DNA of 64,000 nt from Kingdonia uniflora. Taxonomy: Eukaryota > Streptophyta > Magnoliopsida > Ranunculales > Circaeasteraceae. This document shows, piece by piece, positions 8,115-63,901 of the stretch; position 1 is the stretch's first letter, and each line of letters begins with the position of its first letter. The notes below the pieces were generated by a model. That model worked only from the letters and a program-made list of their open reading frames with translations, did no database searches and had not been told where the DNA came from. The stretch lies in contig JACGCM010001948.1 of assembly GCA_014058105.1 (NCBI GenBank), positions 1,612,001-1,676,000 of the forward strand. The letters are read 5' to 3'. The position numbers and the translations under genes were made by a program.

Positions 8115-9165
8115 AATCAAACTGTGAAAGTTCGCAATATATAAGTAGTTTGTTAGCAGTAATTTGTTTGTGTGATCATTTTTTATGGAGAACGAGGTAT
8201 AGTTTGTTGCATCGAACTGAGATGAATAAGAATGAAGTATTCTGTTTTACTGTCTTGTGTGTAGATATTGTGGATTACCGTTGTATTATTTTTAACAATT
8301 GCATAGATATCTTTGAATTTTGAATGTTGAACTATTTTTGGAATGCTGTATGATCCTGGTAGATTATAAAAGTAAAATGATTGGCCGTTTGTACTATATT
8401 GGGGAAGAGGTGCAAAATTTGTTATGGCAGATAATAGAGGCAGATGTGATGATAATAGACGTTATCGCAGAAGTCATGATAACTCTGTTACTTAAAAAGA
8501 CGTGCATGTAGATAGAGTAGGGATGGCTGATACGCGTCTGAAAGAGCTATTGTTACGAAAGCCGAGGTAGAGTATAAAAACTCGTATCTCTCTCCTTCAT
8601 AAATTATCAACAGTTGCGGAGAGAGAAAAAAGTTGTGCAAATCCCATTTTTACAGAGAGGAAATGTTTGAGTTTTGTGTGTGATTTGAGAGAGAAAGAGG
8701 TTCATTGGGTGATAAAAACCAATCTGAAAAGCGTCGGGAGCCGTCATCCTAAGGAAAACGTTCAAATAAAATAGATGATTATTGTTCTTCAAGTACAGGT
8801 TGGTAATCTGTGTCTCTGTTTGTTTGATTTGTGTTTGCTACTACTCTATATGATGTTCTCTATTTTTGTTTTCAGATTGAGGGATACAGTAGGTTGATAA
8901 TGTAGGGGTTTTATGATCTGTGAATAACTGATGAGAAAGTTAGTAGTTTTAAAGTTTTGTCATATGAAGAAGTTGTAGAGAGAGAAAATATTTATTTGGA
9001 GAAGAAGATGGAAAACTTGAAATGATTGCCTTTTATTTTTGGGAAATTATAGAGTAGGCGTGTAGACTTTGTAGAAATTTGTGTGGGCCTATTTTTATTG
9101 TATATAGGGTGTAATATGGAAAGTAAAGATAATGGTAAAATAATTTGTGTATATGTAGGTTCAAT
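8115..9165 (+). promoter_or_regulatory. Leader region upstream of the G2 antisense ORF
   Basis: No coding frame is evident. A TATATAG sequence at 9101-9107 lies about 60 bp before the antisense start codon. A plausible 5'-leader intron is seen (AAGTACAG|GTTGGTAATC near 8798 and TTTTGTTTTCAG near 8876), and another 3' splice site, TATATGTAG, lies 7 bases before the ATG at 9166. G3 has a comparable acceptor (CTTCTTCTGTAG) 6 bases before its antisense ATG. This is inference from sequence context only. Confidence 0.35.
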
Positions 9166-10007
9166 ATGCGTTCCAAACCTATAATTCCCTCAAGTAGATT
9201 TGTAGTATCTTCGAGTTCAGAAGAGACCTCATCATCAAGGAGGGAAGGCGAGAGTGATGCCATGGAAGGGACTGCAAATTGTTTTGATGTGACTGTAGAA
9301 GTTGGTGAAACCAGTAATATAGGGAAAGAGATAGATGATAAAAAAGAGAAAGATAATGCATTTGTTATATACCCAGAGAGAGTAGATGTAGGAAAAGAGT
9401 TATTAAAATATAAGAAAAAATTGCAAAGATAATAGGGAAGCTACCTGGGGAACCAAGGTCGCTGGTTTAGGACCTATGTCCCATGAAAAGGAGAGGAGGG
9501 CGGTATACTACTAAGTCCCTTACTTAGAGAAGTAGAAAAAAAAGAGAGAGATTGGTGATGATGTTACTCTTTCATACTATAACGACCTCGGCCTATCAGG
9601 CCCGAATGATGGATTTCTTTGCTACCTGAGTAAGGTCGTGTATGGGATTAGAATCCCTCAAACTTATTTTCAGAAATGGGTGATGAACAAACTGCAGTGT
9701 TGTCCTCCCCAACTAAATGGGAATGTTTATGAGATGATAAGGGTATGCGAAGCACTAAATGAGAAATAGAGAAAGGAAGGGACTGCTAAGCAGTTTAAAG
9801 CCAATGACGTATTGAAGTTTTATGAATTGAAATATGTCCAAGGTCAAAGTAGTGGTTACCTTTATAGTGACTCATCCAGGCTGAAATTTTTTGATTTTAA
9901 ATCTGCGGGTAGATCAAGGAACGATCACCTTGTATTGGTAGGGGGTAACTGTATGCAGGTTCCAGATGAACCAGCGCTCATTCTGAACCATAAATATTAT
10001 AACCCGA

Positions 10008-10087
10008 GTAAGTAACATTGATCAATCTTTGACTATCCAATATCCTATCTTCGAACTGTTAATTAATGTTATGCTTTTTTTTGTCAG
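10008..10087 (+). other. Intron 1 of the G2 antisense ORF
   Basis: Donor GTAAGT follows ...TATTATAACCCGA, and a T-rich tract ends in TTTTTTTTGTCAG. Splicing leaves phase 1 and continues in frame into NPSSAPDMTSLFDC. The same donor codon context (YNP) and phase occur in G3, and the same phase-1 acceptor in G4. Confidence 0.65.
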
Positions 10088-10626
10088 AACCCAATCCTTC
10101 CTCGGCGCCTGATATGACTAGCCTATTCGACTGCGTTGCTTGAGATCAGGACGAGTTAAAGAAAGTACTTGGTGAGCTCGGTATCTGTAGGGATAAAAGG
10201 GTAGATTCCATAGTACCCAAAGTTCAGCGAGCTCACGTGAATCGGGCTATGGTTGAAGAGAAAACTTTTTTGACTGTGGATGATGTCCTTAGTCTACCAC
10301 CTCCTGTTCCTGAAAGTTTGAAGCAGACTACTCGTAGGTCGAGAAAGTTTACTCCACAGGGTACGCCAACCACTAGGGTTACGACCACAGAATAAGAGAT
10401 CGTAAAAACTCTTCCTGTTGTGGAGGAAAGACAGGAAGTGAGTGCGATTATTCTTGCAGAAGTGGAGACGAACTTGCTAAAGCGAAAATGTCATGAGGAT
10501 GAGGGTAGCTCTCATACTATCCCTCATGCTGCGGCCAGGATAAAAGAGCAAGAGCATAAGTACTGCCTGATGGTAAGGACAGATCAGAAGCAGCTCGATA
10601 AAGAGTATCAGGAGCACGCTCTCGCA

Positions 10627-10712
10627 GTATGTGTTTGAACTCGTTATTGTCTTGTATTCAAACTAAGGGCTGGTGTTATAAACTTGTGTTTGTGTATATT
10701 TTGTACTGGAAG
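10627..10712 (+). other. Intron 2 of the G2 antisense ORF
   Basis: GTATGT...GGAAG joins EYQEHALA to LLMLLKGVKKCLDKR in phase 0, linking two open segments that lie in different genomic frames. G4 has a phase-0 intron at the homologous site, before VSRMLKGVTLGVEK. Confidence 0.6.
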
Positions 10713-13700
10713 CTCTTGATGTTGCTGAAGGGGGTGAAGAAATGTCTTGATAAGAGGGGCCAAGAGTTTGGGGATCTTACTCTGAAGTTTGATGCCCAAT
10801 CGGCTTACCTGAAGGAGCTAGAAGCTGAGCTCGAGGTAGAGAAAGACAATAGAGCTGAAGATGCTAAAGTGGCTACAGAGTTCGCAGAAAAATATAGACA
10901 TCTGGCGGGGTATGATGACGTTATGTCAAAATAAATCAAGGCACTGAAGGATGAAATAGATCACTTTGTCCAATCTTACTATAATTTTAGATTGACAAAG
11001 CTGACGTGGAGATAGGCCGAACTGGCAGATATGATGAAATAGTCCTTCCTTCATTGGTGGTGGACTAAGTGATGGATGATATTGTTGTTTATCCTGAGAA
11101 AATGTTAGAGCTTCTACCAGAAAGTACCAAGCCAGTATGATCGGCTTGAAAAACATTAGATCCTCTATCGGACCATGATGATCCAGTCCAGCCTGTTGGA
11201 AAAATGTTGGAGCCTCCATCTGAGGTAGAAATCGGCAAGAATCTATAAACGTTCTGTGGTATTCTATTTTTGACTTTATACAGTTCGCTTGATTTGGATG
11301 TGATTGTACTCTGTAAGGTCGTAAATTGTTAAGCTTGATAAAAGCTTTTAGTATGCTCTTCTTGAATGCTTGTATGATAATAAGATATTTGTAATCTGTG
11401 TAGGAGATAGAGCGATTAAGAAAAATAAATTCTGAACTAGAGAGATCGTTGAGTAGAGTGAGGGATTTCATGGCTCGTATTCAACAGGTACTTAATAAAA
11501 TTGAATATGAGATAAGGCAATTTAAATTTAATTATGAGAAAATATTTAAGGAGTTATATGACCTCCAGTGTAGATATGCTAAGATAAAAATAGAAAGGGA
11601 TAAGGTGTTGAGAAAAAAAGAGGAAAAGGGGGCATTAGTTCGATAACCAAAAGAGTTGACCTGTTTTAATAACCCGAGTGATGGAGCTAGGTGTCAAAGT
11701 ATGCTGATAGATCTAACATTGAATTTTGAGGTCGAAGTAGATAGTGAACGAGGTTTAAAAGAAGCTTATGTAGAACTTTTGAAGGAAAGGGTGTAGTACC
11801 TGACCCAGCTCGAGTTATGTTTTTAGCTCAAAAAGCACGTAATCATCATAGTGTAGAGGCGAGAAAATATTCAGCTCGAGCTGATGTGTTTGTTATATGA
11901 GTTGATGTAGAGCCTTTATATGATGTGTTTGGCTTTATGCAGGATCGGAGGGCCATTAGAATTATATTTTTCAGGATAAGAAAAATGTAAATAAAGCTTC
12001 AACAGCAATTAGAAGGTGAGGTATAGGGGTTGCAGGATGAAATATCATAACATATGGGGCATAAAAGGTCTTTAGCGACACGATTGTCGATAGAAGTGAC
12101 TGTTCAAATAAAAGTAGAAGCCGATGTGAGGGTTTTAGGTGTATTGCAAAAAGAAATGTGCAGGCGACTGCGTAAGGTGCATATGTAATTGAATGAGTAT
12201 CTGTATCCGTCGCAAGCAAAAGTCGCAGCTCGAATAGAGCATGAGTGTCATATATCAAGTGTTATTGATTTTTATGGGGGAGAACTAGTGAGGGTAGATA
12301 ACGAATTTAGGAAGTTCGTAACGGAATGTGGGAAGGATTTTAATCTTGAGAATGCCAAGGCTAAAAATATGTGGTTTACCAAAGAGGAAGGGGAATTTGC
12401 TGGTGAAGAACCCATTCCTAGGTCGAAGGAACTGCTATCAGAAGAGGATGAGGAGGAGGTCGAGAATCTGATACCCCGATCGCGGTGTAAACAGTGTCAG
12501 CAAGAGGGGGTGAACTTTACAACTCTTATAGATATTCAAGTAACGAATAGAAAGAGTCCGAGAGGTAAAGGGCAGTCCTCACATATCACGAAGAAGTGAA
12601 AATAGGTTGTTCTAGTTTTTACCTGTTCTTCATATATATTAGATCTTTGTATACTATTTTTGTTTGATAATAAATAGAATCTATTCTCTGTGATGATGAA
12701 TAGAATGATGTATCGATATTACTCAGATATCATGTTCCTGTTTAAACTTGTGAACTGTAATATGTAACCTATTTGTAAAAAATAAATTATTATAAATGCG
12801 AACTGTTATGACAGGTAGAACTGGTAGTTGTTCAGAGTAAATGTGACGCATTACGCATTTGAAATAAGCAATTAAACACTGAACTATGTTCGCGTCAGGG
12901 GGCACTAAAGAGTGCTATCGAATTAGAAGGAAAAAAAGAAGGCGAAGATATCACAAGAACAGAATACAGTCATTCGTTTCTCTGAGAAACTGCAAGACAA
13001 AGAGACTGAGCTCAGGTAAATCTGTTGGAAGCGGAAATAACAGATACACGAGTCACCTTTCAGAGATAAAAACTCGTGCTCAAAAATATGAAGTTTTGTG
13101 GTTAGTTTCTTATGTGATGATAAAGAAGATGGAAGAGGCCCGTAATAAATAGAAAAAAAACATAAATGAAGCTTGGAACAAGGTATCTGTTCTAGAGTAT
13201 ACCATACAGCTGTTAGGGTTGAACATCTTAGAGTATCAATCAGAAAATGTGCAATTGTGTGATACAAATGCCAAGTTAAATGCTAATTTTTTGAAGGCGA
13301 AAATAAGTCTTGATGACATTAAAATAAATATTGATCATCGTGAGGCTGAAATGGAGGGGTCATTATCTTTGATTTACCACATTGACAAATTTATGATAGT
13401 GTTTGAGACAAGGCATGATGCGATGTTGGCTGAAAAATGAGTTGTGGATTACCGTTGCGACAGTTTGGAGGCTTCATTGAAGGAAGCGAATAGAAAACTT
13501 GGTAAATTTATTCTTCGTGATAGAGTCAAGAGTGAGGTAGGTAATGCATATGAGAGAGAGATGACAATAGTGCTTTCCTTTTTTGTATATGAGTTTAATA
13601 GATTAGAGGCAGAGAGTAAAACGGTGTATGATGGTTTAGTTGCAAAAGGTGTACAGTACGAAATGAGGTTGATTCGATTAGAGTACCTAGATCCCATGGT

Positions 13701-13991
13701 GGCAAGAATTGGTGCTCTTAAAAAGAGGATGATTAGGGAAGGAAAATAAATTGTTATTGGGAGGATGCCAGAGTTTATGCGCAAGCATTTGTATCGGCAT
13801 GGGGAGAGTTCAAGGGGTGATGGTGCGATTGAAAGTTTGAGCGATAGTGATTGATGATGTGAAAGATAGTAAGAGTACAATATATATATATAACTGCTTG
13901 AATGATCGGTATGTATGTATACTGACCTTTGTATGAACCAATTGTATTGCTGTCGTCTTGCTTGGCGTTTAGTCACATAATAAGAGGGTGA

Positions 13992-14450
13992 TTTGGCCAA
14001 AGCAACAAATCATCTATAATGTATGGAGGATTGGTTTGGCTGAAGTAACAAACGATCTGTAATATATAGAAGATCAGTTTGGCTGAAGCAACAAGCGATC
14101 TATAATATATGGAGGATCGTTTTGGCTAAAGCAATAAACGATCTGTAATGTATAGATGATCAGTTTCCCTGAAGCAATAAATGATCTGTAATATATAGAG
14201 GATCAATTTTGTTGAAGCAACAGGCTATATGTAATGTATAGGGGATCAGTTTGGCTGAAGCAACAAATGATCTGTACTGTATAGAAGATCAGTTTGGCTG
14301 AAGCAGCGAGTAATTTGTAATGTATAGATGATCAATTTGGCAAAAACAACAAACGATATAGAGGATCAATTTGGCTTAAGCAATAAACGATCTGTAATGT
14401 ATAGAGGATTAATTTGGCTGAAGCAGCAAATGATATGTAATCTGTATATA
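13992..14450 (+). repeat. 43-bp tandem repeat array (about 10 copies) in G2
   Basis: A unit like GATCAGTTTGGCTGAAGCAA...CGATCTGTAATGTATAGAG repeats with a 43-bp period (TGAAG at 14041, 14084; TAAAG at 14127). Copies are diverged and one near 14350 is shortened. The array lies exactly between the end of pol and the end of the antisense ORF. Confidence 0.85.
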
Positions 14451-14639: not shown

Positions 14640-17600
14640 AAGTGCACTGTGATAGAGTATTATCTTCCATATAACTTCAATCGCCTCGTGTTCCAAGGAT
14701 TAGGAACTCGTTCCCCATTTTCTGTGGCGAGATCGTAAGAACCAATGCCACTTTTTCCAATAATGATAAAAGGACCTTCTCAATCTTCGGCCAATTTTTT
14801 AGCATTGACTTCTTTTCTAGGTTTGGGAACTTCTCAGAGGATGAGATCTTTGATTTTAAACTCTCTATGATAAAATCGTTTGTTATAAGATCGGGTTAAA
14901 GCTTGGTGGTATATGCCAAAGTTCATGATTGCTCTGTCTATAGTTTTCTCGATCCAGTTCATGTTACATGCCAACTGGAATTCATTTTCTTTATCTGTCA
15001 TGGTATGGTCGCGCAACTGGTGATGATATTGAGTGGGGATAATTGCTTCTGTACCATATGCCAGGAGGAACGGTGTGTATCCAGTTGATACTCGAGGAGT
15101 TGTGCTATATGCCCATAAAGCAGGTGGTAATTCTTAGACCTAATTACCCTTCTTCTCTGTCAAACACTTTTTGATTCCATCCACAATAGTGCGATTATTG
15201 ATTTCTGCCTGACTATTTCCTTGTGGGTAATATGGATTAGAAGGAGAGTGGATGGTGTTATACTGATTAAGGAACTCAATGACTCTGGAGCCAATAAATT
15301 GAGGCCCATTGTCGATTCTGATGAGATAGGGGCATACAAACTGAATGATGATAGTTTCCCATATAAATTTGATGACTTCGTATTCTTGTGTGTGGCACAG
15401 AGGGACTACTTTCACCTATTTAGTGAAGTAATCTGTTGCTACTAGGAGATGCTTCCTTTTGCCTGGTACAGTGGGGAATTCTCTTACTAGGTCGAGGGCC
15501 CATCTTCTGAATGGCCAAACAATATTGCTGGAATGGTGTTCCAAGGCTGGGGCTCGAATTTTGGGGCCATGTTGTTGGCAGGCATCGCACTTTCTCTCAA
15601 GTGCAATGGCTTAAGCTTTCATTTAGGCCAAAAGACTCCTTGGATAAGAGCACGATTGGCTAGAGATCGTCCTGTTGCGTGGGAACCACAAGTAATTTTC
15701 TATAGTTCGTGTAGGAAGTTTTGAGCTTCTTTGTTTGATAAGCACTCGGATACGGTCCTGTGACCAAAATTTGGTAAAGGAGACCATTGTCCACGACGTA
15801 TCGTTTAGCATAATCAAATATGCATCGTCTTTCAGTAGGATCTTTAGGGAGCTAGTTGTCAAACTTATTATGAGGTCTGATATATGTGAGAAAAGGTCGT
15901 CTCCAATCATCTTTTCCCTCTTCAACGCCCCCAGTATTTAAAAAATTTGAGCTTATAATGTTAAATCAGGTGGTAGATATTGCTTTGATTTTGAGATATC
16001 GGGCCTCTATGCCTAGTACTCCTACTAGATAGGCAAGGGAATCAGCATGCCTATTTTCTCCACGCGGAAAATATTCAATGGTAATCCTCTTGAATATGTG
16101 CATTCTATCAATTACTACTGCGGCGTAATCAATCATTTATCCATTCTTTTGAAACTTCTCTATATAATGGTTCACAATAAGTAAAGAGTCTGTATACACA
16201 GATAACTTAAAAATCTAATCTTGAGAGCAATATTTATACCATGAATTATTACTTCATATTCAGCCTCATTGCTAGTAGCTTTGAAATTTAGTCTAATTGT
16301 TTTCTTGATCATATTATTGGAAGGTGTGATAAGTACGATTCTGATGCCTAATCCCGCAGGTCTGGCAGACCCATCAGTTAAAAGACGTCCTCCCTTTTGA
16401 GTTATCCAATCTGACTTTTCTTCAAACTATTCTTCATTAATATACGTACTATCTTCTTCCAATTTAGGATCTTCTACTGGGAAGTCCGTGAGAAAATCTG
16501 CTACTGCTTGACCGTTTTCAGAATGACATGATTCGAAACGGATGCCATGTTTGCCAAGAATTACCGACCATTGTTGTACTCGTCTGGATTTCTTTTGCTT
16601 GGATAAGATTTCTTGCAAAGGATAATTTATCATTACCCAAACTGAGTGGGCTTGAAAATACTATTTCAACTTCTGCAATGTATATACGAGAGCTAAAAGC
16701 AGTTTCTCGATCTTGGTATACCAGGATTCTGCTGGAATGAAAGTTTTACTAATGAAGTAGACATGCTTTTCCATCTTTTCACCAAGCTGAATGAGAACAT
16801 AACTTAATGATTCGTCGATAACTGCTAGATAAATGGTGAGTTCTTCTCCTTTTGTAGGTGTACTCATAATTAGTGGTTTACCCAAATAACATTTGAGTTG
16901 CCGCTTTACATTTTCTGTCCACTCGATCTCAGAATCCTTCTTAGATTTCTTTTTTGCTATTCCTTCACACAATAGGTCGAATAACCATCGACATCGATCT
17001 AAAGACTTTGAGACAAAATGATTAATTACAGCAATCTTGCCTGCTAACTTCTGCATGTTTTTCTTTATTTTTGGAGAAGGCATAGGCAACAGTGTGCGAA
17101 TACGATTTGGATAAGCTTTTATGCTTCGCTTGTTAACCAAATGTCCCAAGAATTTGTCAAACTAAACCCCAAATTGGCACTTCTCAGGATTGAGTCGCAT
17201 ATTGTAGAAACGGAGAATTTTGAAAGTTGTGTGTAAATCGACGATATGGTTCTCCTTTTTAAAACTTTTACACAACATATTATCAATGTAGACTTCCATC
17301 ATTTTTCTGAGGTGATCTTTGAACATCTGTGTCATCAATCTTTGATAAGTAGCTCTAGCATTCTTGAGACCAAAAGACATGACCTTATAGCAGTATAAGC
17401 CATGCTCTGTAATGAAAACAATTTTCTTTTGATCATCGGGTAGCAGAGGTATCTGATTGTACCCTGATGTTGCATCCATCATGGATAAGTATTCGTGTCC
17501 CGCAATAGAATTGAACAGATGGTTTATGATAAGAAGTGGAAATCTATCCTTTGGAGTATGCTTATTGAGGTCTATAAAATCCATGCACACTCTGATCTTG

Positions 17601-17855
17601 CCGTTCTTCTTTGGTACTACTACAATGTTCGAGATCCATTCTGGATAATTAGTTTTTTGGATAAAACCCACTTCAATAAGTTTATAAATCTCTTTGTTGA
17701 CTTCTTCTCGGAGACTTGGTGCGAAAGTTCTCTGCCTTTATTTGACGGCTTCAGCTTTTTCTTTCAAATTCAGCTTATGGCAAGCCAAATTGGGATCAAT
17801 TCCTGATATTTTGTGAAAAGTCCAAGTGTCTCTTACTCTATTTGAACAAAGCATG
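14640..17855 (-). pseudogene. G2 pol: RT, RNase H, archaeal-type RNase H and integrase (degenerate)
   Basis: RT (about 17806-17162) contains FIDLNKHTPKDRFPL, SMMDATSGYNQIPLL and a catalytic box changed to YIDN (the family usually has YIDD or YVDD). RNase H (17149-16427) contains KIAVINHFVSKSLDRC, KHVYFISKTFIPAE and AVADFLTDFP. The archaeal-type RNase H follows (about 16400-15960) with TDGSARPAGLGIRI and NEAEYEVIIHGINIAL. Integrase (about 15930-14650) has RIDNGPQFIG and NSQAEINNRTIVDG, giving the second Asp and the Glu of the DDE triad, and ends NPWNTRRLKLY. Protease and gag are missing because the element is cut at ~17860. Several stops and frameshifts are present. Confidence 0.8.
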
Positions 17856-17860
17856 GGATA

Positions 17861-33756: not shown

Positions 33757-34473
33757 TGTAGTAGCCTACTTGCAGCGTTCTAGCTCCAGTCAAACACTCG
33801 AAGGCTACATCGAAGCTTATCTGATGACCCGAAGCCTAATAAACCCATAATCAAGGCCTCTAAGACTATACGAACACTCAACTGTGAAAAAGCTTTGACC
33901 ATGATCATACGTGGTCGAAGGAAAACGTGTCAGGCAGCCAGCTCACCAGACAGAACGGCGGAGCACGCCGCTCGACAACTACAGTGTCAAATTCAACAAC
34001 CACAGTGTCAGAACCAGCAAGCTATAGCATCAGGAACAATGGCTACAGTGTCAGACCCGACAGTTACGGAGTTAAAACAACCACAGTTACGGACTCCGGG
34101 TACAAGTCAGGTGTCTGAAGGATACTCTTGTAATTTGACCTCTCATGGTAACTCAGCCATTCCTATGTTCTATAAATAGGAGGGAGGGGGAATTATGGAG
34201 GGGTTAGAAGAACTCTCCCCACAGACCTTGAATTTTACCTTTGAATACCCTATAATCACCCTGTAATCAAAACTTTGACTTCTCAAACTTTATATCACTA
34301 CTCTTAAAAATCCTCATCAGAGGTTGTGGAGTGACCAATTCTAGGCCTCCACGCAAGTATATTGCCAGTAGATTAGTCACGTTAATACTAATTATATGCT
34401 TGAATCCTTTGGTTGAGGATAATATTCGTAGTGTAAGAGTCAACTTCCTTCCCCACGAAGTTAGGCCCCTACA
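33757..34473 (+). repeat. G3 5' LTR
   Basis: TGTAGTAGCC ... GGCCCCTACA, with a TGTAG/CTACA terminal inverted repeat. It matches 47159-47863 throughout, with visible point differences. In its left half a CTACAGTGTCAG-like motif recurs at 33979, 34000, 34022 and 34043, 21-22 bp apart. Confidence 0.9.
34170..34179 (+). promoter_or_regulatory. TATA box in the G3 5' LTR
   Basis: CTATAAATAG lies about 300 bp before the LTR end and is a good plant TATA box for the genomic transcript. The 3' LTR copy reads CAATAAATAG. Confidence 0.6.
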
Positions 34474-34475
34474 TT

Positions 34476-34493
34476 TGGTGTCGTCCGTGCTTT
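34476..34493 (+). other. G3 primer-binding site
   Basis: TGGTGTCGTCCGTGCTTT, two bases after the LTR. It is a diverged relative of TGGCGCCGTCTGTGGG in G4, whose TGGCGCCGT start resembles a tRNA-Asp primer site. Confidence 0.6.
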
Positions 34494-36231: not shown

Positions 36232-39200
36232 AATATCGACAACTATCGTTCTAAAAGTAAGCGCAAGCATGTCTAAGAATATTGTAAACTCACTTACCAG
36301 GAGAAGCTACCCGCCCTCCTGCCATAATCAAGTCAATATCCCAGACCCGAGGGTATCTCATTTATTGACTGTGATACATCGTACGTTCATTTTCCCCATT
36401 CTAACCCTTTAGCCATTATGATTAAGGTCGAACACCTCGTCCTCCATACCATGCTTATCGATACGGGAAGTGCAGCTAATATACTTTTCCTTCAAACTGT
36501 TCTAGCCATGAACAAAACATACCTCATCACTGCCGCCAATGTCAAACTAAAAGGTTTTAACGGGGCTACCGAAGTTGTCGTTGGTCGAATTAGCCTTCCA
36601 GTTACTACCGGCCTAGTTACACTTCAAACCAGTATTCTTGTCATCGATAAGAAATCTGAATATCTCGGTATCCATGGGCACGACTGGTTCCATACCATAC
36701 GCGCCACACCTTTGACCTACCATAAGACCCTTTGTTTCACTACCCCGTGGGGTACGCGGAACTTAAAAGGCTCCCAACACCTCACCCGTTCATGTGAGTA
36801 TCCAGAGATCGATCTAACCCAGAAACTCGTCAAACTACCATAGCAATCATTGTCTCCCTCTATACCTTCAACACCCGCCATCTCACCCATAGAACCCATT
36901 GCTTATATTGAACTCGACGGTCCTGGTTGAGGTACGTTCATCGGTACCTTTCTAGATGAGGCCGAGCACCTCAAACTCACCAACTTCCTTCAAGCCAATA
37001 AAAACATCTTCGCATGGATATTTCAGGAGATGCCCAGTGTCGACCTTTGTTTAGCATGTCATCGCATCGACCTTATCCCTTACGTTATAGCAGTAAAGCA
37101 GAAGAAGCGTACATTGGCCCCACGATTTTGAGAAGCTATAAACCTTGAGGTTGACAAGCTCATAGCCACGGGTTTCATTAGAGAAGTCAAGTACGATGAC
37201 TAGATATCCAACATTGTTACAGTTCCTAAAAAGAATGGTAAGATATGAATTTGCGCCGACTTCACAGACATCAACTAACATACACCTAAGGACAGCTTCC
37301 TCCTCCCGATCATTTCAATCCTCCTGGATGTCACTGCTGGACATGAGCGACTATCAATGATGAACTAGGGCTGGCAATGGGCCAAGTTTAGGGTTGGTGG
37401 AGTAATACCATCCCCATACCCGCCAAATTATCCAACCCCTAAACCCGCCCCAATACCATTTAACTTAAATTGGGAATACCCAAACCCGCCCTGTTTAAAT
37501 TTGTCTATACCAACCAAACCCGCCCAACACCCGTTTAACACCCGTTTAAAAATCCATATGTTTGATACAGTATTATTTAATGTTGTCAGCAGAATCTAAG
37601 TTTTACAAGACTCTAAAGAAATATAGGTATTATTAATACACCAAAGATGGGATACGATTCAGACGAGAAAAAGGAAAACATTAGACATCATAAGATTAGT
37701 GTGAGGTTTAATAAAAGCCATTTTTCAAGAAAATTGTTAAAAATAAAAGTTAGTTTGGTAAAGAATGTTATTTTGGGTTTAAAATTGAATTGAGTATCAT
37801 ACCGATTGTAATGATGGAGTACATAGATGGAGATGAATATTGCTACATAGATGATCAAAATTGGTAAAAAAAATAAAATGAGTCACCAGTTGAGTAAAAA
37901 GGGGAAATAGGGTTTGAACAATTCAAACTAAAAACTAAAAATTTACAATCTTTTTAATGAAAGCAAGTAGTAGTAGTAATAAAAAGGGATGAGAAAACCA
38001 ATTGATTCAGAAAGAGAAAATGGATACCTTTCAAACAAAGATATCTTTTTTTACTTCTTGTCTTCCTTGTTTTGATCTCTGAGAAAAGAAAGAAAGAAAG
38101 AGAAATCCAAAATCTTCTTATTAGAAGAAGAATGTGAGTTTCATCATAGATCCATTAAAATCAGAGCACTCACTTAACTTGGGCTACAAATAAAAATTAG
38201 TTTGGTGAAGAATATTATTTCGAGGTTGAAATGAAGAGAAGCTGATGACAGAATACAGGAGGATAGAGGTTGAAATGAAGATAAGAGAGGAGACATGATG
38301 CTGGACTTAACTAATATGTCTTTAGAATTAGGTTTAACTTAAGGGTATTCAAGTCATATCTTTTATAACTGGGTTGGGTGATGGGGCCCCATTTATTAGA
38401 GCCTAAAACCAGACCCGCCCCATTAAATAAATAGGGTTTTTTTTAAAATAAAACCCGCCCCATACCCGGTATAGTCATACCAAACCCGCCTCATTAAGGA
38501 CGGGGCGGGGAGGGTTAAATTGCCAGCCCTATGATAGATACGGTTTTTGGTTATAATCAAGTACCCCTCCTCCCCGAGGATCAATTTAAAACATATTTTA
38601 TCACTGAACAAGGCCTTTATTGTTTTAACGTCATGCCCTTCGGCCTTAAAAATGCGGGAGCCACTTACCAATACCTCGTTACAACCATGTTTAAAACCTT
38701 GCTTGGCAAGTCGGTCAAAATTTATACCGACGACATATTATTCAAGAGCCTCCAAAAACAGACCCAGATCCAGGACCTAACCGAAGTCTTCTCGATACTT
38801 TGAACATACAACATGAAACTTAACCCAGACAAATTCCAGTTTTGTGGTTTGTCTGGCAAATTATTAGGTCACCTCATCACCAAACGAGGTATCGAGATCG
38901 AACCTACTCATATCCGAGCCCTCATCGACATGCCTTCCCCCTGAACCAAAAAAGATGTCCAAAAGGTGGATGGCAAGATAGCAGCCCTTAACCGCTTTAT
39001 TTCAAAATCTTTAGACCGCTGTGCTTGGATCTTCTCACTCTGAAACGATCAAGGCATCCACAAGGCCAAAAAGAAAAATAACCCTGAGATCAATTGGACA
39101 CCCAACTGTGAACAGGCATTTCTCAAACTTAAAACATGCCTCAGTCGGCCACCCATCATCAGTATATCTATCGAAGGTAATTCACTTTCTTTATACCTCG

Positions 39201-41398
39201 CGGTCACCGACACTTCTATTAGTTCAGTCCTCATTCGACTCGAATCCAACATTGAGAAACATGTATACTTTATCAGGAAAACCCTGACACCTGTAGAAAC
39301 TCGATACACAGAACTTGAGCGTTTGCTCCTCACCCACGTCTACACTTCTCAAAAACTCAAACCATATTTTCAAGCTCATACTATCCGTATTATCATACGT
39401 TATCCCCTTCGAGAAGTACTCAACAAGAAAGACAAATCTAGACGGGTACAGCAGTAGTCCGTTTATCTTGCTAAACACGATATCACATTTGAGAAGCAGG
39501 TATCCCAAAAGGGCCAAGCAGTCGTTGATTTCCTTGCTGACTTCCCGATCAAAGATGTCGGTTGGGAGAAACACGAGGACGACCTACCAGAAGACCAACC
39601 CGAACAAACAAACCAATGAAACCCTAACACAGGCTAGCGCTTCTTTACAAATGGATCCGCTAGACCTAATGGTTCAGGGATTGGTATCGTCATGGTTACA
39701 CCCACCAATGATTAAATTGAAAAAACAGTCAATTTAAACTTTGAATGCTCCAACAATGAGGCTGAGTACGAAGCCTTGATCCATGGCCTCAACCTCGCAC
39801 TCAATCTTGGTGTCCCTAAACTGGTAGTTTTCACAGATTCCCAACTTGTTTAGAGACAATACACCGGTGAAAATCAGTTCAACGGTCGCATGGCTGAGTA
39901 TGTTGGTCTCATCCGCCAGCGCATGGACCGTTTTCCTGAAAAATATTCCATTACTTACAACCCCCGAGGTGAAAACAGATACGCAGATGCCCTCGCCTAT
40001 ATAGCAACTATGTTAGGCTAGTCCAAATCTCAAACACTCCATATTGAAGTACTCGAACGCCCAAGTATCAACAAGATGAAAGTCAATGCCATCAATACTG
40101 GGGGTGAGAGTCTCGATCCAGACGACTAGAGAATTCCATTTCTTACCTACTTTAACAGTTCTACCCTACTAGACGACCCCAAAGTAAAACGATTGTTATT
40201 AGAGAACTGTCGCAGATACACCATTCTCAAAGGAAAATTATGTCACAAATCCCCAAATGGCGTCCTCCTCTGATGCATATCTCAAAACGAAGCCTCTAAA
40301 ATTCTTGTCAAACTCTACTAAGGTACCTGCGGTACTCACACTACTGGTCGGTCTATATCCCTTCGAACTGTCTCCCAAGGTCTATTCTGGCCCAATATGA
40401 AGAAGCAAACCAAAGAGTACACCAAACACTATGACAAATGCCAACGTAATTCCCACGACATCTATAGCCCTTCGCAAGACCTCCATTTTAGCCAAGTCTC
40501 TTGGCCATACAAGCGCCGGGCCACCGATCTTGTGGGTCCTTCTCCTAAAGCATCGGGTAGCCGTAAAAATGTTCTTGTGCCAATAGATTACATTACCAAA
40601 TGGGTTGAAGTCGTACCTTTATGTCGAACCAGAGAAGAAGAAGTCATCAAATTTCTATGGGAGAACATTATTATACACTTCGGCTGCCCTCATATGATTT
40701 GATGTGATAATGGTCCACAATTTATGGGGAACAAAGTTCTAAATTTCCTCAAAAAGTACAACATCATCCTCTTCCCGTCAACACCTTACTACCCCCAAGG
40801 GAATGGTCAGGTCGAAGCAATCAATATAATAATAGTCGATGGTCTCAAGAAGCGTGTCGATGCGAAGAAAGGATGATGGGTTCAAGAACTACAACATGTC
40901 CTCTGGGCCTATCAAACAACACCACGAAAGGCGACGAGCTACACACCTTTCCTTCTAGCATATGGTACCAAAGCAGTGCTACCCACTCAATTTGAAGTAC
41001 CTATACGCAATCCCAACCTCCTAGACGAAGATAATGAGTTTAAACTCGGATGTAATATATTGTGGATCAACAAAACCAGATACTGAACCATCGCTAACCT
41101 CGGCCGGTATCATATCTTCCTCCAAAAGTCATACAACAAGAGAGTTCAACCATGCAATTTTAACATTGGAGATCTTGTACTTCGATGTGTCACACAGTCT
41201 TCAATGCCTCGAAATGCCAGCAAACTGGCCAAATTCTAGGAAGGACCTTATGTCGTGTACGATAAGAGCGACAAAGGTTCATACTACCTGATGACAAAAA
41301 ACGAAGAGCCTCTCCCTAATCCATGGAATACAATGCAACTAGTCTCATACAACAGGCTGCGGCCTCCACCTTGTTCCCCTGATGTAAATGCAGAATAA
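36232..41398 (+). pseudogene. G3 pol: protease, RT, RNase H, archaeal-type RNase H, integrase
   Basis: Protease (36418-36840) has MLIDTGSAANILFLQ and YLGIHGHDWFH. RT starts near 36900 (NIFAWIFQEMPSVD), is interrupted by a hAT-like insertion at 37366-38531, and resumes with GYNQVPLLPEDQF, PFGLKNAGATYQ and YTDD in place of YIDD. RNase H (about 38940-39600) has AALNRFISKSLDRC and AVVDFLADFP. The second RNase H (39640-40020) has NGSARPNGSGIGIV (expected DGS) and NNEAEYEALIHGLNLAL. Integrase (40300-41398) has TDLVGPSPKASG, CDNGPQFMG and NGQVEAINIIIVDG, covering the DDE residues, and ends NPWNTMQLVSYNR. The frame differs from gag by one base. Only stops, not frameshifts, break the domains. Confidence 0.85.
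37366..38531. mobile_element. hAT-like non-autonomous DNA transposon inside G3 RT
   Basis: Perfect 13-bp terminal inverted repeats TAGGGCTGGCAAT / ATTGCCAGCCCTA. Flanking octamers TGATGAAC (37358-37365) and TGATAGAT (38532-38539) each differ slightly from the TGATGGAT expected from related RT sequences, which fits an 8-bp hAT target duplication. Subterminal AAACCCGCCC motifs recur near both ends. The 1166 bp contain no transposase frame. Confidence 0.8.
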
Positions 41399-41424
41399 TT
41401 AATGAACATATTTTTCCCTGAACT

Positions 41425-42290: not shown

Positions 42291-42869
42291 TCATACAGGA
42301 GTGGCCACACCATCTCCTCCTACAGGCTCTTCAACGCCAACACCTCTAATATCTTTAGTAAAAGGATTTGACCCAGCAGCGTTCGCGACTTCATTAGTCA
42401 CAGTCCCAGCAGCAGCTTCATCCATGCCACCTCCCATAGTTACACCAACAATATCTACATCTATCCCCTTTGTCTGAACAGCATCTTCGATGATTGGATC
42501 ATTGGTTATGGGAAAGCATTTTAAAGTTTCGGGATCATACCCCAACTCTTCTAAGAACATCTTCGGCCTGACGTTAGTTTCTCATTCATCATCGAACTGC
42601 CCTTGGAAGGTCTCCCACTGTTCTTTCATTGCCTTATCCTTCTCAGCAAGCTTCGACTCTAGCACCTGCGTATGATTGTAGCGTTGAGCTTCGAGTCTCT
42701 ACTCATATTCAGATCTGAGGGTCAACTGTTCTTGCTTTAAAACTTTAATTTCAGACACCAGCGACGCCTCGGTCCCTCGAGCGAGTTCCAGATTGTCAAC
42801 TACCCGTTTCAGCTGCTTCATTGCTACTTTTTGAGCCTTGACAAAAGTTTGCGACCAAGCATGCGTCTG

Positions 42870-42950
42870 CTAGAATATTTGAACCATCAGTACTTCTTGA
42901 AGGAGGATGAATTTAAGAAAAAAAATTGAATTTCAAAAAAAAATAGTTAC
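42870..42950 (-). other. Intron 2 of the G3 antisense ORF
   Basis: Donor GTAACT after TTACATTAG and acceptor AAATATTCTAG, phase 0, 81 bp. The TAG just before the donor is an in-frame stop at an exon end that usually reads CAG, a likely C-to-T change. Downstream QTHAWSQTFVKAQKV continues the coiled coil. Confidence 0.5.
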
Positions 42951-43524
42951 CTAATGTAAAGTTTTATTCATCCGCCTCTCAGCCTCCTTTGGGTCAGTGC
43001 CACAGAGCGCTGCCTTCAAAGCAGCCATGGCTCGAGCATGCTCTTCTAGTTCGGCTTCTGTTAGCTCCTCGTCCACATCCTCTGTATCCTCCTCCCCCAA
43101 CACCCTCACATCTTACGCTGAGCTAACATCAGCTGCTGGACCTTTGGAAATTTAAGAAAGACCTTGCCCTTCCCTTTGTCAGCCTACGTCGACGCTGGCT
43201 TCGATGCCTACTTTGACGCATCACGAACTACTTCGGGTATAGGCACTGCCTGCTTCGGTGCCTGTTGTCCTTTTGGAACATAATTCACCTTCCTCGACAA
43301 TCTCACTTTCTCCATTCCTACGACCCATCTCGAAGTACCTTCGCCTCCCTTCTTCTTTGATAGCTTCGGAGTAACAGGAACGTTATGAAGCAGATAATCT
43401 GTCTTCTTCTGCCTCTTCCTTTTTATACCTAACTTCCTGAATACAGAATCTACCCACTCTTCGTCCGAGTTAATCATCCCGCCAATATAATTCCTCGGAT
43501 TTACCAAAGGTCGGTTACTAAGTG

Positions 43525-43598
43525 CTGCAGACAAAACAAAAACATGTTTGTCAGTCTATTCAATCAATATTTCAAAAAATCTTCGACTATCAACTTAC
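43525..43598 (-). other. Intron 1 of the G3 antisense ORF
   Basis: Minus-strand donor GTAAGT after ...ATCTATAATCCAA and acceptor TTTTGTTTTGTCTGCAG. Phase 1, 74 bp. The exon junction falls in the same YNP codon context as in G2, and splicing continues in frame into LSNRPLVNPRNYIGGM. Confidence 0.65.
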
Positions 43599-44450
43599 TT
43601 GGATTATAGATCCTATGTTGTAGCTTATAAACGTCCTCCCCTTCGGCATTCTCATAATTTCCCCGTACCATAACCAAGTTCTTATCCCACCCTCGACCCA
43701 TTGAGCACAAATCAAGCAACCAGGCTTATCTGCGTAACATTGGATGTGGTATGTATCCATCTTATGGTTTGCTTTCCTCGAGTAGAATGACACAATATCA
43801 TACCACTCGATCATGCCCCTCCCCTCACTTCTCAGTTTTACATTCATATCCTCGACCACCTTCATCATTTCATAGAAGTTTCCATTCATCTGGCATGGGG
43901 TAACTTCCCAGAAGTTCAAAACCTCCTTCACCAGCCTTCGAAGGGGTAGTTGCATCCCTAGCCAAATCTGGCCTCTAAATGCCATAAAACCCTATTTGGA
44001 TTTAGACCTGAAGATATACCCAGACCTTACTGCATATTATATCACCCCTACCTTCGACAACTCCAGCTTAGCCACAAATCGATCCAGTCTCAGTTTCTCT
44101 TTACATAAGACATACTTCGCAGCTTTCCTCAATTCAGCCAAACTTTTACTATTACCACTCTGTTCCCCCTCTTCACTTTCATCCCCTAAAGGCACGACAC
44201 TACCTTCGTATTCCCTTCTCTCTCCTCCCCCCACCTTCTCATCCCTCTCCTCGGTCACTCGAGCCTTTCGACGGCTCCTACTCGAAACCCCAATTTTAGG
44301 ATCCACCACGGCTAATGGGGAATTTGTTACAATGTCTAACTCTTCTATGTCGCTGCTCTCACCCGCTAAAGCACGACCAGACATACTCAGTTCATTTTGT
44401 TCGATCTCCTCGTCTATCAGCCTTAGTCTCGAAGATCGACGTGTACGCAT

Positions 44451-47144: not shown

Positions 47145-47158
47145 TGAGAGGGGGCGAA
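47145..47158 (+). other. G3 polypurine tract
   Basis: GAGAGGGGGCGAA directly precedes the 3' LTR start TGTAGTAGCC. The G2 tract (GAGAGGGGGTGG) is nearly the same. Confidence 0.75.
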
Positions 47159-47863
47159 TGTAGTAGCCTAATCGCAGCCTTCATGTTCTAGTCGAATACT
47201 CGAAGGCTACATCGAAGCCTACTTGATGACCAAAAGCCTAATAAACCAATAATCAAGCCCTCTGAGACTATACCAACACTCGACTGTGAACAGACTTCGA
47301 CCATGATCATACGTGGTTGAAAGAAAATGTGTCAGAAAGCCAGCTCACCAGACAGAGCGACGGAGCACGTCGCTCGAAAACTACAGTATCAAATCTAATA
47401 ACTACAGTATCAGAACCAACAAGCTACAGCGTCAGGAACAATGGCTACAGTGTCAGACCCGATAGTTACGGTGTCATAACTGACTCTGGGTACAAGTCGG
47501 TTGTCTGAAGGATACTCTTGCAATTTGACCTCCCATGGTGACTCAGCCCTTCCTATGTTCAATAAATAGAACAGAGGGGGAATTATGGAGAGGTTAGAAG
47601 AACTTTCCCCACATACCTTGAATTTTACCTTCGAATACCTTGTAATCACCATGTACTCGAAACTTCGACTACTCAAACTTTATATCAGTACTCTTAAAAA
47701 TCCTCATCAGAGGTCGTGGAGTGAACCATTCTAGGCCTCCATGCAAGTATATTGCTAGTAGATTAGTCAAGTTAATACTGATTATATGCTTGAATCATTT
47801 GGCTAAGGATAATATTCGTAGTGTAAGAGTTAACTTTCTTCCCCGCGAAGTTAGGCCCCTACA
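47159..47863 (+). repeat. G3 3' LTR
   Basis: TGTAGTAGCC ... GGCCCCTACA, 705 bp, collinear with the 5' LTR but with many transitions. The TATA box is mutated to CAATAAATAG (47560-47569). Confidence 0.9.
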
Positions 47864-48239
47864 TTTCCTTTCAGAATATTTGTTCATGCATTTACTGTTA
47901 TATATTTCTCATCTATTATGTATTTTAGGAGTTTGCTTCTTTTTTTATCCACTATTATATGTTATTTACCCTTTATTCGTCTATGACAAAAAAGGGAGAG
48001 ATGATCATGACATGTAAGCCAGGTAAGTTATGATTTTTTTAGAATTTTTTTGAACGGTTAGGTGATGTATCTTATTTAGTGTGCAAGGATTCTAGAGTAG
48101 ATGTTATAGGATGAAAGAGTGGCTTTGAGTATGGATGTTCAGTTATTGAGTCAATCTATAGAGTTGTAATTTTTTTCTTTCTTATAATTGTAGTTTTACC
48201 ACAAAATGAACCAAAGGGAGAAATTAAAATATCCATATT
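47864..48239 (+). other. C1 3' untranslated region resuming after G3
   Basis: T-rich non-coding sequence with two purine tracts, GACAAAAAAGGGAGAGATG (~47986-48004) and CCAAAGGGAGAAATT (~48211-48225). Doubled tracts before the LTR are usual in SIRE-type elements. Confidence 0.55.
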
Positions 48240-56519: not shown

Positions 56520-59500
56520 GATGAGTGGGTTAACAGAATGTTGTGACCTCACAGTTCGGGATAAAGAAGTTAAACTCCTTCTCGAATCTAGCAATCGGTG
56601 AACTAGAATTTTATTTGAAGATTACGATATCGGTTATGTCAAGTTCCCACATCATGATGCACTGGTTATTATGCTTAAGATGAAATTTTTTGTCATGTAT
56701 ACCATGCTGATAGATACATGCAGTGGTATTGAAATCTTTTTTTAGAGTACAATCGGCCAAATGGGATTAACAGACAAAGTTGATCCAAGCGACATCGATA
56801 TCAGTGGTTTTAACGAATCTAAAGAAGAGCGAGTAGGGAAGATCATCCTACCAATTACTGCTAGACCCACCACTATCGACGTTGTTTTCTACATTATCAA
56901 TGTAAAATCTCAAAACCTGGAAATAATGGATCATTGCTGGTTACACAACATGAAAGTGATCCCATCCATGTACCATTAAGCACTTCATTTCAAATACAAC
57001 GACGATATCTATGAGATTAAATGAAGTTAAAAGGTCTCTCGAGCTTGCAAAAATATAATATCTGCCATACTTGACACATCTGACAGATTTTATTATGTAG
57101 CAATTGCAGAAAGCTGATCACACTGATGTTCAGCCTTCCAGAGTAGAACCCATAGAGTGTATTAAGATCGATGGACATAGCAGGGGTACTTATATTGGTA
57201 CCAAGCTGGTTCAATAGGAGAAATAAGCTTTCATTCATTTTTTTATAGATAAACCAAGACATCTTCGCTTGTTCTTTTCAAGAAATGCCAAGAGTTGACC
57301 TAGCTAAGGCGTATTACATATTTAACATCAAAGATAAAGTTACGGCAGTCAAAAAGAAATAAAGGAGGCTCTCACCGTGTCTCAGAGACGAGGTCATCAG
57401 AGATATTAATAAATTAATCTAGGTTAGATTCATTTGAGAAGCCAAATACCTGTATTAGATCTCAAATATTGTAGCAGTTACAAAGAAAAATAAGAAAGTC
57501 CGAGTTTGTGTGGAATTTACAGATCTAAACAAGCACACATCGAAAGACAGATTTCCTCTTCCTATTATTCATTAAATTCTTGATTCTACAGCAGGTCACG
57601 AGCTGCTATCTATGATGGACGCTGCTTCAGGATACAACCAGATACCCCTCTTAGACGAAGATCAAGAAAAGATAACCTTCATCACTGAAGAGGATTTTAA
57701 TGTTACAAAGTCATGCCTTCCGGACTAAAAAGCCCTGGAGCAACCTATTAAAGGCTAGTGACAAGTATGTTCAAAGAACACTTGGGAAAGACCGTCAAAG
57801 TATATATTGACGATCTACTTTGCAAAAGCTTATAGAAGGAGGATCATATTACACATCTCAATACAGTCTTCAACATATTGCGACTATACCGAATAAAACT
57901 CAATCCAGATAAATGTCAATTCGGAGTGCACTCTGGAAAGTTCATGGGACATCTTATCAACAAGAAAAAAATTGAAGCTGATCCAGATTTGACTTGAGCT
58001 CTAATCTCCATGCCATCACTACAAAGAAAGAAAGATGTACAGAAGCTCGCTGGCAAGAATATAAAAGCTCGAGATAATATTGATGGTTATTCATGCTACT
58101 TTGTGGATCCACCAGATGAGGCAACGGATGACAAAATGAAGAGATCAATTGGACAGAAGAATATGAATCCACTTTTCAAGAACTAAAAATCTATCTTGGA
58201 AAATCTCCCATAATGAGCACCCCGATAGACAATAAGGAATTGATCATCTACCTCGCTGTTACAGATAACTCTTTCAACTCGGTTCTCATTCGGCTCAAAG
58301 GAAAGATTGAGAAGCCAGTATATTTTATAAGCAAAACCCTCACACCGGCAAAAACAAGATATTCTAAGATCAAACGACTACTCCTCACACTCGTCTACAC
58401 TTCATAGAAGCTCAATCATTATTTTCAAGCTCATTCAGTCAAGGTCATGATTAATTATACCCTTCGAGAAGTGCTATCTAAAAAGGAAAAATCACGCAGA
58501 GTACAATAATGGTATGTCGCTTTGGGAGAACACGACATTAAGTTTGAACAAAGAACCTCAAAAAAAGTCAAGCAGTGGCTGATTTTTAGTAGACTTCCCA
58601 GTAGAAGATCTAGATTGGGAAGAGCACAATCCAGATCTAATATAAGAAGTCGAAGATGATCCACCTTTGAAGCCTTACAAAGAGTGAGATAAGTGGGTCT
58701 CACAGAAGGGATGAAGACTTCTTACAGATGGATCAGTAGGACCCGCAGGGTCAGGAATTGGAATCATACTGATTACACCCTCAAATGACAAAATCAAGAA
58801 GTTTATCTGCTTAAACTTTGAAGCATCGAACAACATCATAAAGTACAAAGCATTAATTTATGGTTTAGACATGGCATTGGAAATTGGAGTTCCTAAACTT
58901 TCGGTTTATACATACTCCTTACTGATAGTCCATCAGTACTCCAAGCGATAGAAGAAGAATGGAAAAATGGTTGACTATGCAGCACTAGTTGTTGACAGGA
59001 TAAGTAGATTTTAAAATGTTGCTTTTAATTATTTACCTCGTGGAGAAAACCGACACGCCGATTCCTTGGCTTACCTAGCCGGGGTCTTAGGCACTAAAAC
59101 AATGTACCCCCAAATTGAAGTGATCTTCACCCCTAACATTTATCTTCTAATAGTATGCGTGATCAACACTGGGGGCAATAAAGAGGAGGACGACAATTGG
59201 AGGAAGCCTTTCCTCGCTTATATCGGCCTAGAGAATAAGTGTGATGGGCTACTTCCAGAAGATCTAAAAGGGCGTCGACAGTTAATTAAAAACTTGAAGC
59301 GTTACACAGTTTAGAAAGATGACTTATATAAAAGGTCAGTCACTGAACCATATCTCAAGTGCCTCTTGAAGACAAAAGCTGACGAAATTGTAAAAAATCT
59401 ACATGAAGGAACTTGTCGCTTTCATACCGCATGACGCTTACTTGCAAACAAAACAATTACACAAGGACTTTTCTAGCCCTGAATGAGAAAGATGGCTTAT

Positions 59501-60451
59501 AAATATTCACAAAAATACGACGCATGCCAACGATGTGGTAACATGATACGAGTACCTGCATTCGAGCTCCATGCTAGTAAAGTATTTTGACCTTTCAAAA
59601 GGTGGACACTCGACCTAGTGAGAGAATTCTCAAACACACCGGGTAACCGAAGGTTCTTACTCGTAGCAACAGATTATTTTACGAAGTGGGTTGAAGCAGT
59701 TCCCCTCTGTCGAACTCGAGAAGAAGAAGAAGTCATCTCATTTATCTACGAACATATCATTACACGATTTGGTTCCCCCCACTGGATTTAAATCAATAAT
59801 AGGCCACAATTCGTTGGAGAGACGGTAGTAGCATTTCTCAATAAACACATCATAATTTATTCACCGTCCAATCCCTACTACCCTCTAGGAAATGAGCAGG
59901 CCAAAATCACGAACAAAACTATAGTGGATAGGATCAAGAAAATACTCAAGTTAGAAGAGAAGGGCAATTTGATAAGCGAACTGCCATACGTCTTGTAGGC
60001 CTACCGCATAACACCGCGATAATCAACAGGATGTTCTTCGTTCCTACTTTCTTATGGAACGGAAGTCGTCATCCCAACAGAATATCATCATCCCATCAAA
60101 GATCACAAGCTCACTAATGAAAAAACTGAGTTTGAGTCAGACTGCAAAATGAATTGGATTGATGAAATACGAACTCGAGTTGTTGCCAACATGGGTTGAT
60201 AACATCATATGCTAGCCAGTTCATACAATCAAAGAGTTTAGAGTTGCGAATTCAAAATCGACGACCTAGTCCTCCGAAAAATCCCTAAAAATAAAATATT
60301 GTTAAATGCGGGACACCTTGAAGAGAATTGGGAAGGTTCATTTCTAGTAGTGGGACGAACTGGCCTTGGATCCTAATACCTTATGATAAAAGATGGAAGC
60401 AGGATACCAAGTCCTTGGAATACTAGGAGGTTGAAGCGATACTATCCCTAA
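56520..60451 (+). pseudogene. G4 pol: protease, RT, RNase H, archaeal-type RNase H, integrase (degenerate)
   Basis: Protease (56520-57000) has MLIDTC where D-T-G is expected, then NLEIMDHCWLHNMKV. RT (about 57250-57990) has FTDLNKHTSKDRFPLPII, SMMDAASGYNQIPLL and an intact YIDD at 57803-57814. RNase H (about 58000-58620) has IIYLAVTDNSFNSVLIRL and KPVYFISKTLTPAK. The archaeal-type RNase H (58700-59090) has LTDGSVGPAGSGIGI. Integrase (59310-60451) has CQRCGNMIRVP, FTKWVEAVPLCRTREEE, RPQFVGETV and NEQAKITNKTIVD, and ends PSPWNTRRLKRYYP. Frameshifts are common in the RT. Confidence 0.75.
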
Positions 60452-63700: not shown

Positions 63701-63901
63701 ATGATTCTACTCCAACCCCAGCAGCTCGGCCAACTCTAGTCATTTTTCTCTTAACCTATAACTTTTAGACTTTCACAGACTTACTATTCACCCTCTTGTG
63801 CCTACTTATCTCAAGTTTGCCCAATACAGCTTCCAACACGACTCCCTCTTGGGATACTATATCGATTAATGACTCTTCTCTCCTTACTTTACAATGAGGG
63901 T
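60728..63901 (-). pseudogene. Large antisense ORF of G4 (exon 2 onward; exon 1 outside window)
   Basis: Exon 2 (63901-63354) starts in phase 1 with PHCKVRREESLIDIVSQE and EAVLGKLEISRHKRVN, parallel to G2 DELKKVLGELGICRDKRVD and G3 DSVFRKLGIKRKRQ. It continues with a basic, Ala-rich part. After intron 2 (63353-63278) comes VSRMLKGVTLGVEKGRS and a long coiled coil (e.g. 62098-61238: LELKLTKSEATISELNK, RQKEVELASVQAKLAS). The end reads VKEIARIEEERDTMHD and KGVKCEMGLVR, matching the last exon of G2, and stops at 60728. Another acceptor (TTATTTGTAG) is at 62743. Several stops are present. The product would be a largely coiled-coil protein of unknown role. Confidence 0.65.
63278..63353 (-). other. 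Intron 2 of the G4 antisense ORF
   Basis: Minus-strand donor AGG|GTAAGT and acceptor TTTGTGCTTTGTACAG, 76 bp, phase 0. It sits exactly 3 codons before MLKGV, as intron 2 of G2 sits 3 codons before LLKGV. Confidence 0.65.

Follow-up and report, generated by a model that had tools for sequence, protein, structure and literature searches.

Introduction

Plant retrotransposons of the Retand and Grande type, flanked by long terminal repeats (LTRs), can carry additional genes on the strand opposite to pol. All recent Retand clusters were reported to contain antisense coding regions (97% with TRP28), and the region between pol and the 3' LTR of Retand spans 2,933-6,566 bp (Vicient 2025; PMC11963269), while Transposase_28 was found in 23% of Retand elements (PMC6317226). 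Gene23 of maize Grande is an antisense gene driven by its own promoter, and its product is nuclear (PMC7264820). Plant LTR elements are generally without introns, the exceptions being Ogre and EVADE (PMC12786077). Here we describe the antisense genes of three related retrotransposons, denoted G2, G3 and G4, in 64,000 nucleotides of Kingdonia uniflora DNA (contig JACGCM010001948.1, positions 1,612,001 to 1,676,000; hereafter the window). Diverged Tat/Retand-like elements of this species very probably carry a multi-exon antisense accessory gene, which would be spliced and expressed only from integrated copies. We observed the positions and phases of its introns, its homology, selection on its exons, its strand opposite to pol and its presence in three families.

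The Kingdonia gene resembles the TRP28 antisense open reading frame (ORF) of Retand as an additional antisense ORF. It differs in that its protein falls under the Pfam cutoff and in that no introns are mentioned for the Retand ORF in the excerpted text of PMC11963269, in whose main text the word "intron" occurs 0 times. Grande gene23, RIRE2, Silene Retand and PvRetro13 have antisense accessory genes like that of Kingdonia; unlike in Kingdonia, introns are not reported for them in the excerpted PMC7264820. Rotifer elements also have extra ORFs, and no intron is mentioned for these in the excerpts of PMC5408684. Introns in a plant LTR retrotransposon are shared with Ogre and EVADE (PMC6317226, PMC12786077). 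In Ogre, the sense RNA holds the intron, which separates the gag-protease frame from that for reverse transcriptase (RT), RNase H and integrase, whereas the Kingdonia introns are on the opposite strand. The EVADE intron is also in the sense RNA. The messenger RNA (mRNA) of HBZ from human T-cell leukemia virus 1 (HTLV-1) is spliced. HBZ is, like the Kingdonia gene, an antisense accessory gene, retroviral and with an unrelated protein and host (PMC11963269), and the HTLV antisense promoter lies within the 3' LTR (PMC7264820). In intron-marked retrotransposition reporters, introns in the sense of the genomic RNA are lost on retrotransposition (PMC12786077), whereas those of Kingdonia face the opposite way and should not be lost.

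A sequence-only reading of this stretch had described antisense ORFs of Retand/Grande-type elements as known, in agreement with PMC11963269 and PMC7264820, and had regarded conserved introns in them as little described. We found no paper on introns in Retand-type antisense ORFs; the original reports of Grande gene23 and Silene Retand may hold an earlier description.

Exon-intron structure of the antisense gene

The G2 gene was delineated as follows.

9157..9158, plus strand: T-rich AG acceptor before the start codon (AG kept in 34/37 copies)
9166..10007, plus strand: exon 1 (tblastn with gene models; a frame change and stops inside)
10008..10087, plus strand: intron 1 (phase 1, 80 nt; gene models splice here)
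10088..10626, plus strand: exon 2 (539 bp; tblastn and copy tests)
10627..10712, plus strand: intron 2 (phase 0, 86 nt; donor GTATGT)
10713..11224, plus strand: exon 3 (tblastn with model P0025; model P0016 and the 11225 donor suggest its end)
11225..11403, plus strand: intron 3 (GT kept in 33/37 and AG in 30/36 copies; exon 4 homology from 11404)
11404..11888, plus strand: exon 4 (tblastn with P0016, P0025, P0033 and P0042; frameshift near 11787)
11889..11942, plus strand: intron 4 (acceptor end 11942, exact donor not located; AG kept in 32/35 copies)
11943..13854, plus strand: later exons (tblastn with P0012, P0033 and P0025; shifting stop-poor frame; stop codon 13852-13854)

At intron 1 the exon reads HKYYNP followed by A|GTAAGT, with the donor G at 10008, and the acceptor TTTTGTCAG ends at 10087, so that exon 2 starts from 10088 in phase 1. 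Exon 3 has a frameshift near 11000, and the homology to P0025 in tblastn breaks at 11888 and restarts at 11939. The P0012-type subfamily is known here from gene models alone. A T-rich AG before the ATG is likewise present in G3 and L051, a second G3-type copy, and the one in G2 is a possible acceptor of an intron in the 5' untranslated region, a candidate whose donor was not found.

The G3 and G4 genes are on the minus strand.

43599..44450, minus strand: G3 exon 1, from ATG (tblastn)
43525..43598, minus strand: G3 intron 1 (phase 1, 74 nt)
42951..43524, minus strand: G3 exon 2 (574 bp; tblastn)
42867..42950, minus strand: G3 intron 2 (phase 0; donor GTAACT)
42291..42866, minus strand: G3 exon 3 to stop (models P0002 and P0011; alternative start 42869 from a NAGNAG acceptor)
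63902..63903, minus strand: G4 intron 1 acceptor AG (TATGCAG, ending at 63902; exon 2 from 63901, phase 1)
63354..63901, minus strand: G4 exon 2 (548 bp)
63278..63353, minus strand: G4 intron 2 (phase 0, 76 nt; donor GTAAGT at 63353)
60746..61159, minus strand: G4 last-exon homology (tblastn with P0025, E 2.8e-14)

In G3, HRIYNP is followed by A|GTAAGT with the donor at 43598, and the acceptor TCTGCAG ends at 43525, exon 2 continuing from 43524 in phase 1. Reading of the sequence bore out the splice sites first noticed at 10008, 43598 and 63902, as well as the exon 2 lengths of 539, 574 and 548 bp. Exon 2 of G3 is frameshifted, so its 574 bp are not a single intact frame. Exon 3 seems to be the last exon in G3-type genes. 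L051 has intron 1 at the same site (A|GTAAGT..TATGCAG, 74 nt, with an in-frame stop within) and intron 2 at the same site as that of G3, with the donor GTAAAT. The acceptor of intron 2 is a tandem TAGCAG in both G3 (42867-42872) and L051 (near 1276); models P0002 and P0011 fit one AG and the other.

The G4 donor of intron 1 lies outside the window, at the window-equivalent position 65626 in locus L048, at the same codon and phase, and reads ATAAGT, a donor with a mutated first base. The proposal that intron 1 occupies the same codon and phase in three families thus held once this site was located. An insertion is found within G4 intron 1 at about 1000-2600 of L048 (window-equivalent 64000-65600), with a short degenerate repeat inside; by eye it looks as if it encodes an RNase H/reverse-transcriptase fragment on the minus strand, LINE-like. 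The second shared intron, the two further introns of G2 and the T-rich AG acceptors before the ATG in G2 and G3 were not part of the sequence-only reading.

Intron positions shared across families

Intron 1 lies at one homologous codon in phase 1 in G2, G3, L051 and G4, and intron 2 (phase 0; donors at 10627, 42950 and 63353) is also common to the families. At the DNA level these have the marks of spliceosomal introns, with GT..AG ends, the same site in relatives and the coding phase kept, the G4 donor being decayed. In a single comparison, G2 exon 1 shares 28% identity with the G3-type model P0002 up to the intron-1 codon (E 1e-16), and therefore the site is common to clearly diverged proteins.

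Gene models of Kingdonia were used to examine the junction more widely. Flank profiles for intron 1 were built from 11 models and 125 models were scanned, of which 68 contain the end of exon 1, 90 the start of exon 2, and 57 both. Among the 57, 43 have their junction at the intron-1 codon, give or take a few residues, and these 43 include the 11 profile seeds. The same models bear on whether the exons are instead separate short antisense ORFs, with the gaps as spacers and the GT and AG ends as coincidence. Gene prediction readily joins ORFs, and 33 of the 125 models hold the exon 2 side only, as separate ORFs would allow. However, the exon 2 match begins at profile positions 1-3, which is the acceptor, in 80/90 models, and the same phases recur in three families. 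Moreover, GTAAGT is present just one time per gene, at offset 842 of the 4,689 bp in G2 and at offset 852 of the 2,157 bp in G3, in each case at the homologous codon, where base composition predicts 2.53 and 1.05 occurrences anywhere in the gene, respectively. Considering this, separate ORFs are a very unlikely explanation.

Frame and selection tests in G2-type copies

A genome search with the G2 gene gave 3356 candidates, of which 40 were scored (the window copy and 39 others). The GT-AG test that the sequence-only reading had suggested came out in favor of the introns: GT..AG was found in 34/40 copies for intron 1 (GT 39, AG 35) and in 29/40 for intron 2 (GT 36, AG 33). An open frame through the introns in relatives had been named there as contrary evidence. 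In none of the 40 copies does intron 1 or 2 combine an open frame with a length divisible by three, and one gene model, P0034, is an exception, as described below. Loss of either intron was seen in 0/40 copies (lengths of 74-92 and 76-88 nt), which were chosen with an intron-containing query.

Besides the evidence from splice sites, the exons carry signs of selection on the protein. The mean pairwise ratio of nonsynonymous to synonymous substitutions (dN/dS) in the predicted frames was 0.37 for exon 1b (span 9461-10007, also used for the codon-position tests; 780 pairs), 0.42 for exon 2 (780 pairs) and 0.36 for exon 3 (span 10713-11000; 736 pairs), while the wrong frames, calculated for exons 1b and 2 only, gave 0.80, 0.82, 0.55 and 0.81. 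The predicted frames of exons 1b, 2 and 3 all differ. Exons 1b, 2 and 3 had 3.0, 3.7 and 0.8 stops per copy in their predicted frames, respectively, and 7.7-20.6 in the other frames. The excess of diversity at third positions was reached by 0/5000 permutations in exon 1b and 1/5000 in exon 2, and introns 1 and 2 showed no such excess. When variants present in at least 4 copies were considered, third positions led in three exons (1b, 2 and 4) and by a bare margin in exon 3; singleton variants had little periodicity. A chance reading-frame artefact was ruled out by the frame and stop tests on the copies, the dN/dS values, and the counts of GTAAGT and splice sites.

Several results weigh against a spliced, multi-exon gene. 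The copies of G2, G3 and L051, read residue by residue, are all broken. Gene models are predictions and thereby weak evidence, and all 125 protein relatives found are models from one species, Kingdonia uniflora. Of the 57 models with both flanks, 13 leave exon 1 earlier, and in P0034 the flanks are separated by 21 residues, which resembles readthrough of intron 1. Exon 3 (240/5000 permutations), exon 4 (357) and the last exon (908) have a weak excess of diversity at third positions; for variants in at least 4 copies, third positions do not lead at the end of exon 4, nor in exon 5 or the last exon. The introns are also not more variable than the exons: the mean modal frequency in G2-type copies was 0.912 and 0.873 for introns 1 and 2 versus 0.902, 0.875 and 0.889 for exons 1b, 2 and 3, and between G3 and L051 the value was 0.824 for intron 1 versus 0.788 for exon 1, in a comparison whose G3 intron 2 and exon 3 boundaries were five bases off the tabulated ones. 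AT-rich introns may have fewer methylation-prone cytosines. Finally, the splice dinucleotides were retained only modestly better than others, at 0.92 for splice GT versus 0.73 for other GT (reached by 2.7% of random sets) and 0.87 for splice AG versus 0.75 for other AG (13%), with the intron 4 donor excluded as its position was not located.

The broken copies and the equal conservation of introns and exons are what would be expected of fossil introns, that is, of a captured intron-bearing gene whose introns persist as retrotransposition cannot remove them and which is no longer spliced or used; in the antisense orientation such persistence is automatic. Against this stand the dN/dS of 0.36-0.42 over exons in three frames and the stop-poor predicted frames, which indicate that the protein was selected while the lineages multiplied and therefore that the joined exons were needed. 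Thus, we consider fossil introns unlikely.

Host elements of the antisense gene

The window is made up of decayed, nested LTR retrotransposons. In a self-comparison, three related pol regions and one partial region at the window start were found.

14670..17826, minus strand: G2 pol (self-blast; RT, RNase H, weak second RNase H, integrase core)
38529..41331, plus strand: G3 pol (homologous to G2 and G4 pol; Integrase_H2C2 at 40322-40699, E 1.5e-6)
57239..60441, plus strand: G4 pol region (homologous to G2 pol)
33757..34476, plus strand: G3 5' LTR (paired with 47159-47866)
47159..47866, plus strand: G3 3' LTR (paired with 33757-34476)
13957..14446, no strand assigned: 43-bp tandem array (repeat search), which separates G2 pol from the antisense gene

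Pfam matches in G2 and G3 identify RT, RNase H and integrase of the Ty3/gypsy type. In G2 pol they were RVT_1 (6e-22), RT_RNaseH_2 (1.3e-10) and rve (1.2e-5, below its cutoff), and the putative second RNase H consisted of two weak collinear RVT_3 pieces (E 0.024 and 0.081), under the curated cutoff; no Pfam match was found for the single piece of G4 pol submitted (59015-59311). The G3 LTRs are 88% identical (Kimura two-parameter distance 0.127). The antisense gene is opposite to pol in G2, G3 and G4, and in G2 and G3 the pol domains on the other strand agree with the antisense orientation first noted. The stretch from G3 pol to the 3' LTR (41331 to 47159) is long, about 5.8 kb, and contains the antisense gene at 44450-42291 on the minus strand. 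Based on this anatomy the G2, G3 and G4 elements are likely Tat/Retand-like, and the Tat-like label given earlier stands to that extent, the second RNase H match being below cutoff.

Could the gene belong to a host family with introns that retrotransposons adjoin by chance? Automatic annotation does label such loci as host genes, and some of these annotated genes include a fused kinase or RRM domain. However, in G3 the gene is internal to the element, flanked by pol and the 3' LTR, and in G2 and G4 it is beside pol. G1, the element at the window start, is interrupted by an insertion, and tracing of its far part yielded L051, whose similarity to G3 continues through the 3' LTR. Together with the 3356 candidate matches in the genome, this leaves a chance association with a host family extremely improbable.

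Predicted antisense protein

The G3 pieces scored 12.3 and 14.0 bits against Transposase_28 (TRP28, PF04195), below the gathering score of 26.2 bits, and therefore the protein is not filed as TRP28. This weak match is in the right place. At an E threshold of 0.5, none of 10 gene models matched PF04195, and this family was absent among the best 25 of 41 families obtained with 33 models. An AlphaFold2 model from 33 aligned models had a mean predicted local distance difference test score of 56 and was confident chiefly in C-terminal helices, so that the C-terminal part is predicted to be long-helical and coiled-coil-like. Relatives outside Kingdonia were not found by single-sequence and alignment protein searches, which need shared 5-residue words and in part scored only the best ~8,000 candidates, and the viral contigs scanned contained no relatives.

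Proposed expression of the antisense gene

Judging from the DNA, the element seems to depend on an antisense mRNA that is transcribed separately and spliced. The multi-exon gene between pol and the 3' LTR would be transcribed from its own antisense promoter, and the host spliceosome would splice this transcript to give the predicted accessory protein. The genomic RNA would be made from the sense promoter and reverse transcribed; since splice sites would not exist on the sense strand, the introns would enter each new copy. In this scheme retrotransposition leaves the introns in place, as the genomic RNA is the strand without splice sites, and the protein would for that reason be made only from integrated DNA. 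The sequence-only reading had proposed a spliced antisense gene kept across diverged families. The tests on phase, selection, copies and models agree with it at the DNA level, and for the transcript we infer an antisense promoter, actual splicing and a function in the element cycle as parts of the best explanation.

It may further be that the introns act as a filter for strand and location, such that protein arises only from antisense transcripts made in the nucleus from integrated copies, and splicing signals integration to the expression program, in an intron-bearing gene carried long enough for drift to 28% identity. We regard this extension as tentative and rather doubtful.

For the Retand antisense ORFs described in 2025, a single-frame ORF finder was used (PMC11963269); such a program would break up an antisense gene that contains introns. 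If such introns are general, re-annotation is needed for the reported Retand antisense ORFs as well as for their domains and lengths. The Kingdonia elements also offer a natural case of a retroelement retaining introns that face the other way. Vicient and Casacuberta (2020) urged a search for antisense and spliced transcripts (PMC7264820), and the expression route of antisense accessory genes is now directly testable, as dUTP-stranded RNA-seq of 18 Kingdonia samples is public (PRJNA971146, PMC10298588).

Additional features of the window and gene models

An inverted match of 71% joins 5527-6056 and 49936-50480. These could be LTR pieces of G2 (3') and G4 (5'), which suggests that G2 and G4 are sister families. 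A direct repeat of 76% is present at 17830-18459, beginning at the upstream edge of G2 pol, and at 48556-49107, upstream of G4. The segment 30738-31961 is an inverted repeat of itself of ~1.2 kb (~80%), is related to 25344-26172, and looks like a palindromic DNA-transposon or MITE-like unit. Among the gene models, P0004, P0007, P0019 and P0067 fuse retrotransposon gene pieces with host domains (kinase, arabinosyltransferase-like, RRM, and BED/annexin), and part of the annotated Kingdonia proteome looks chimeric.

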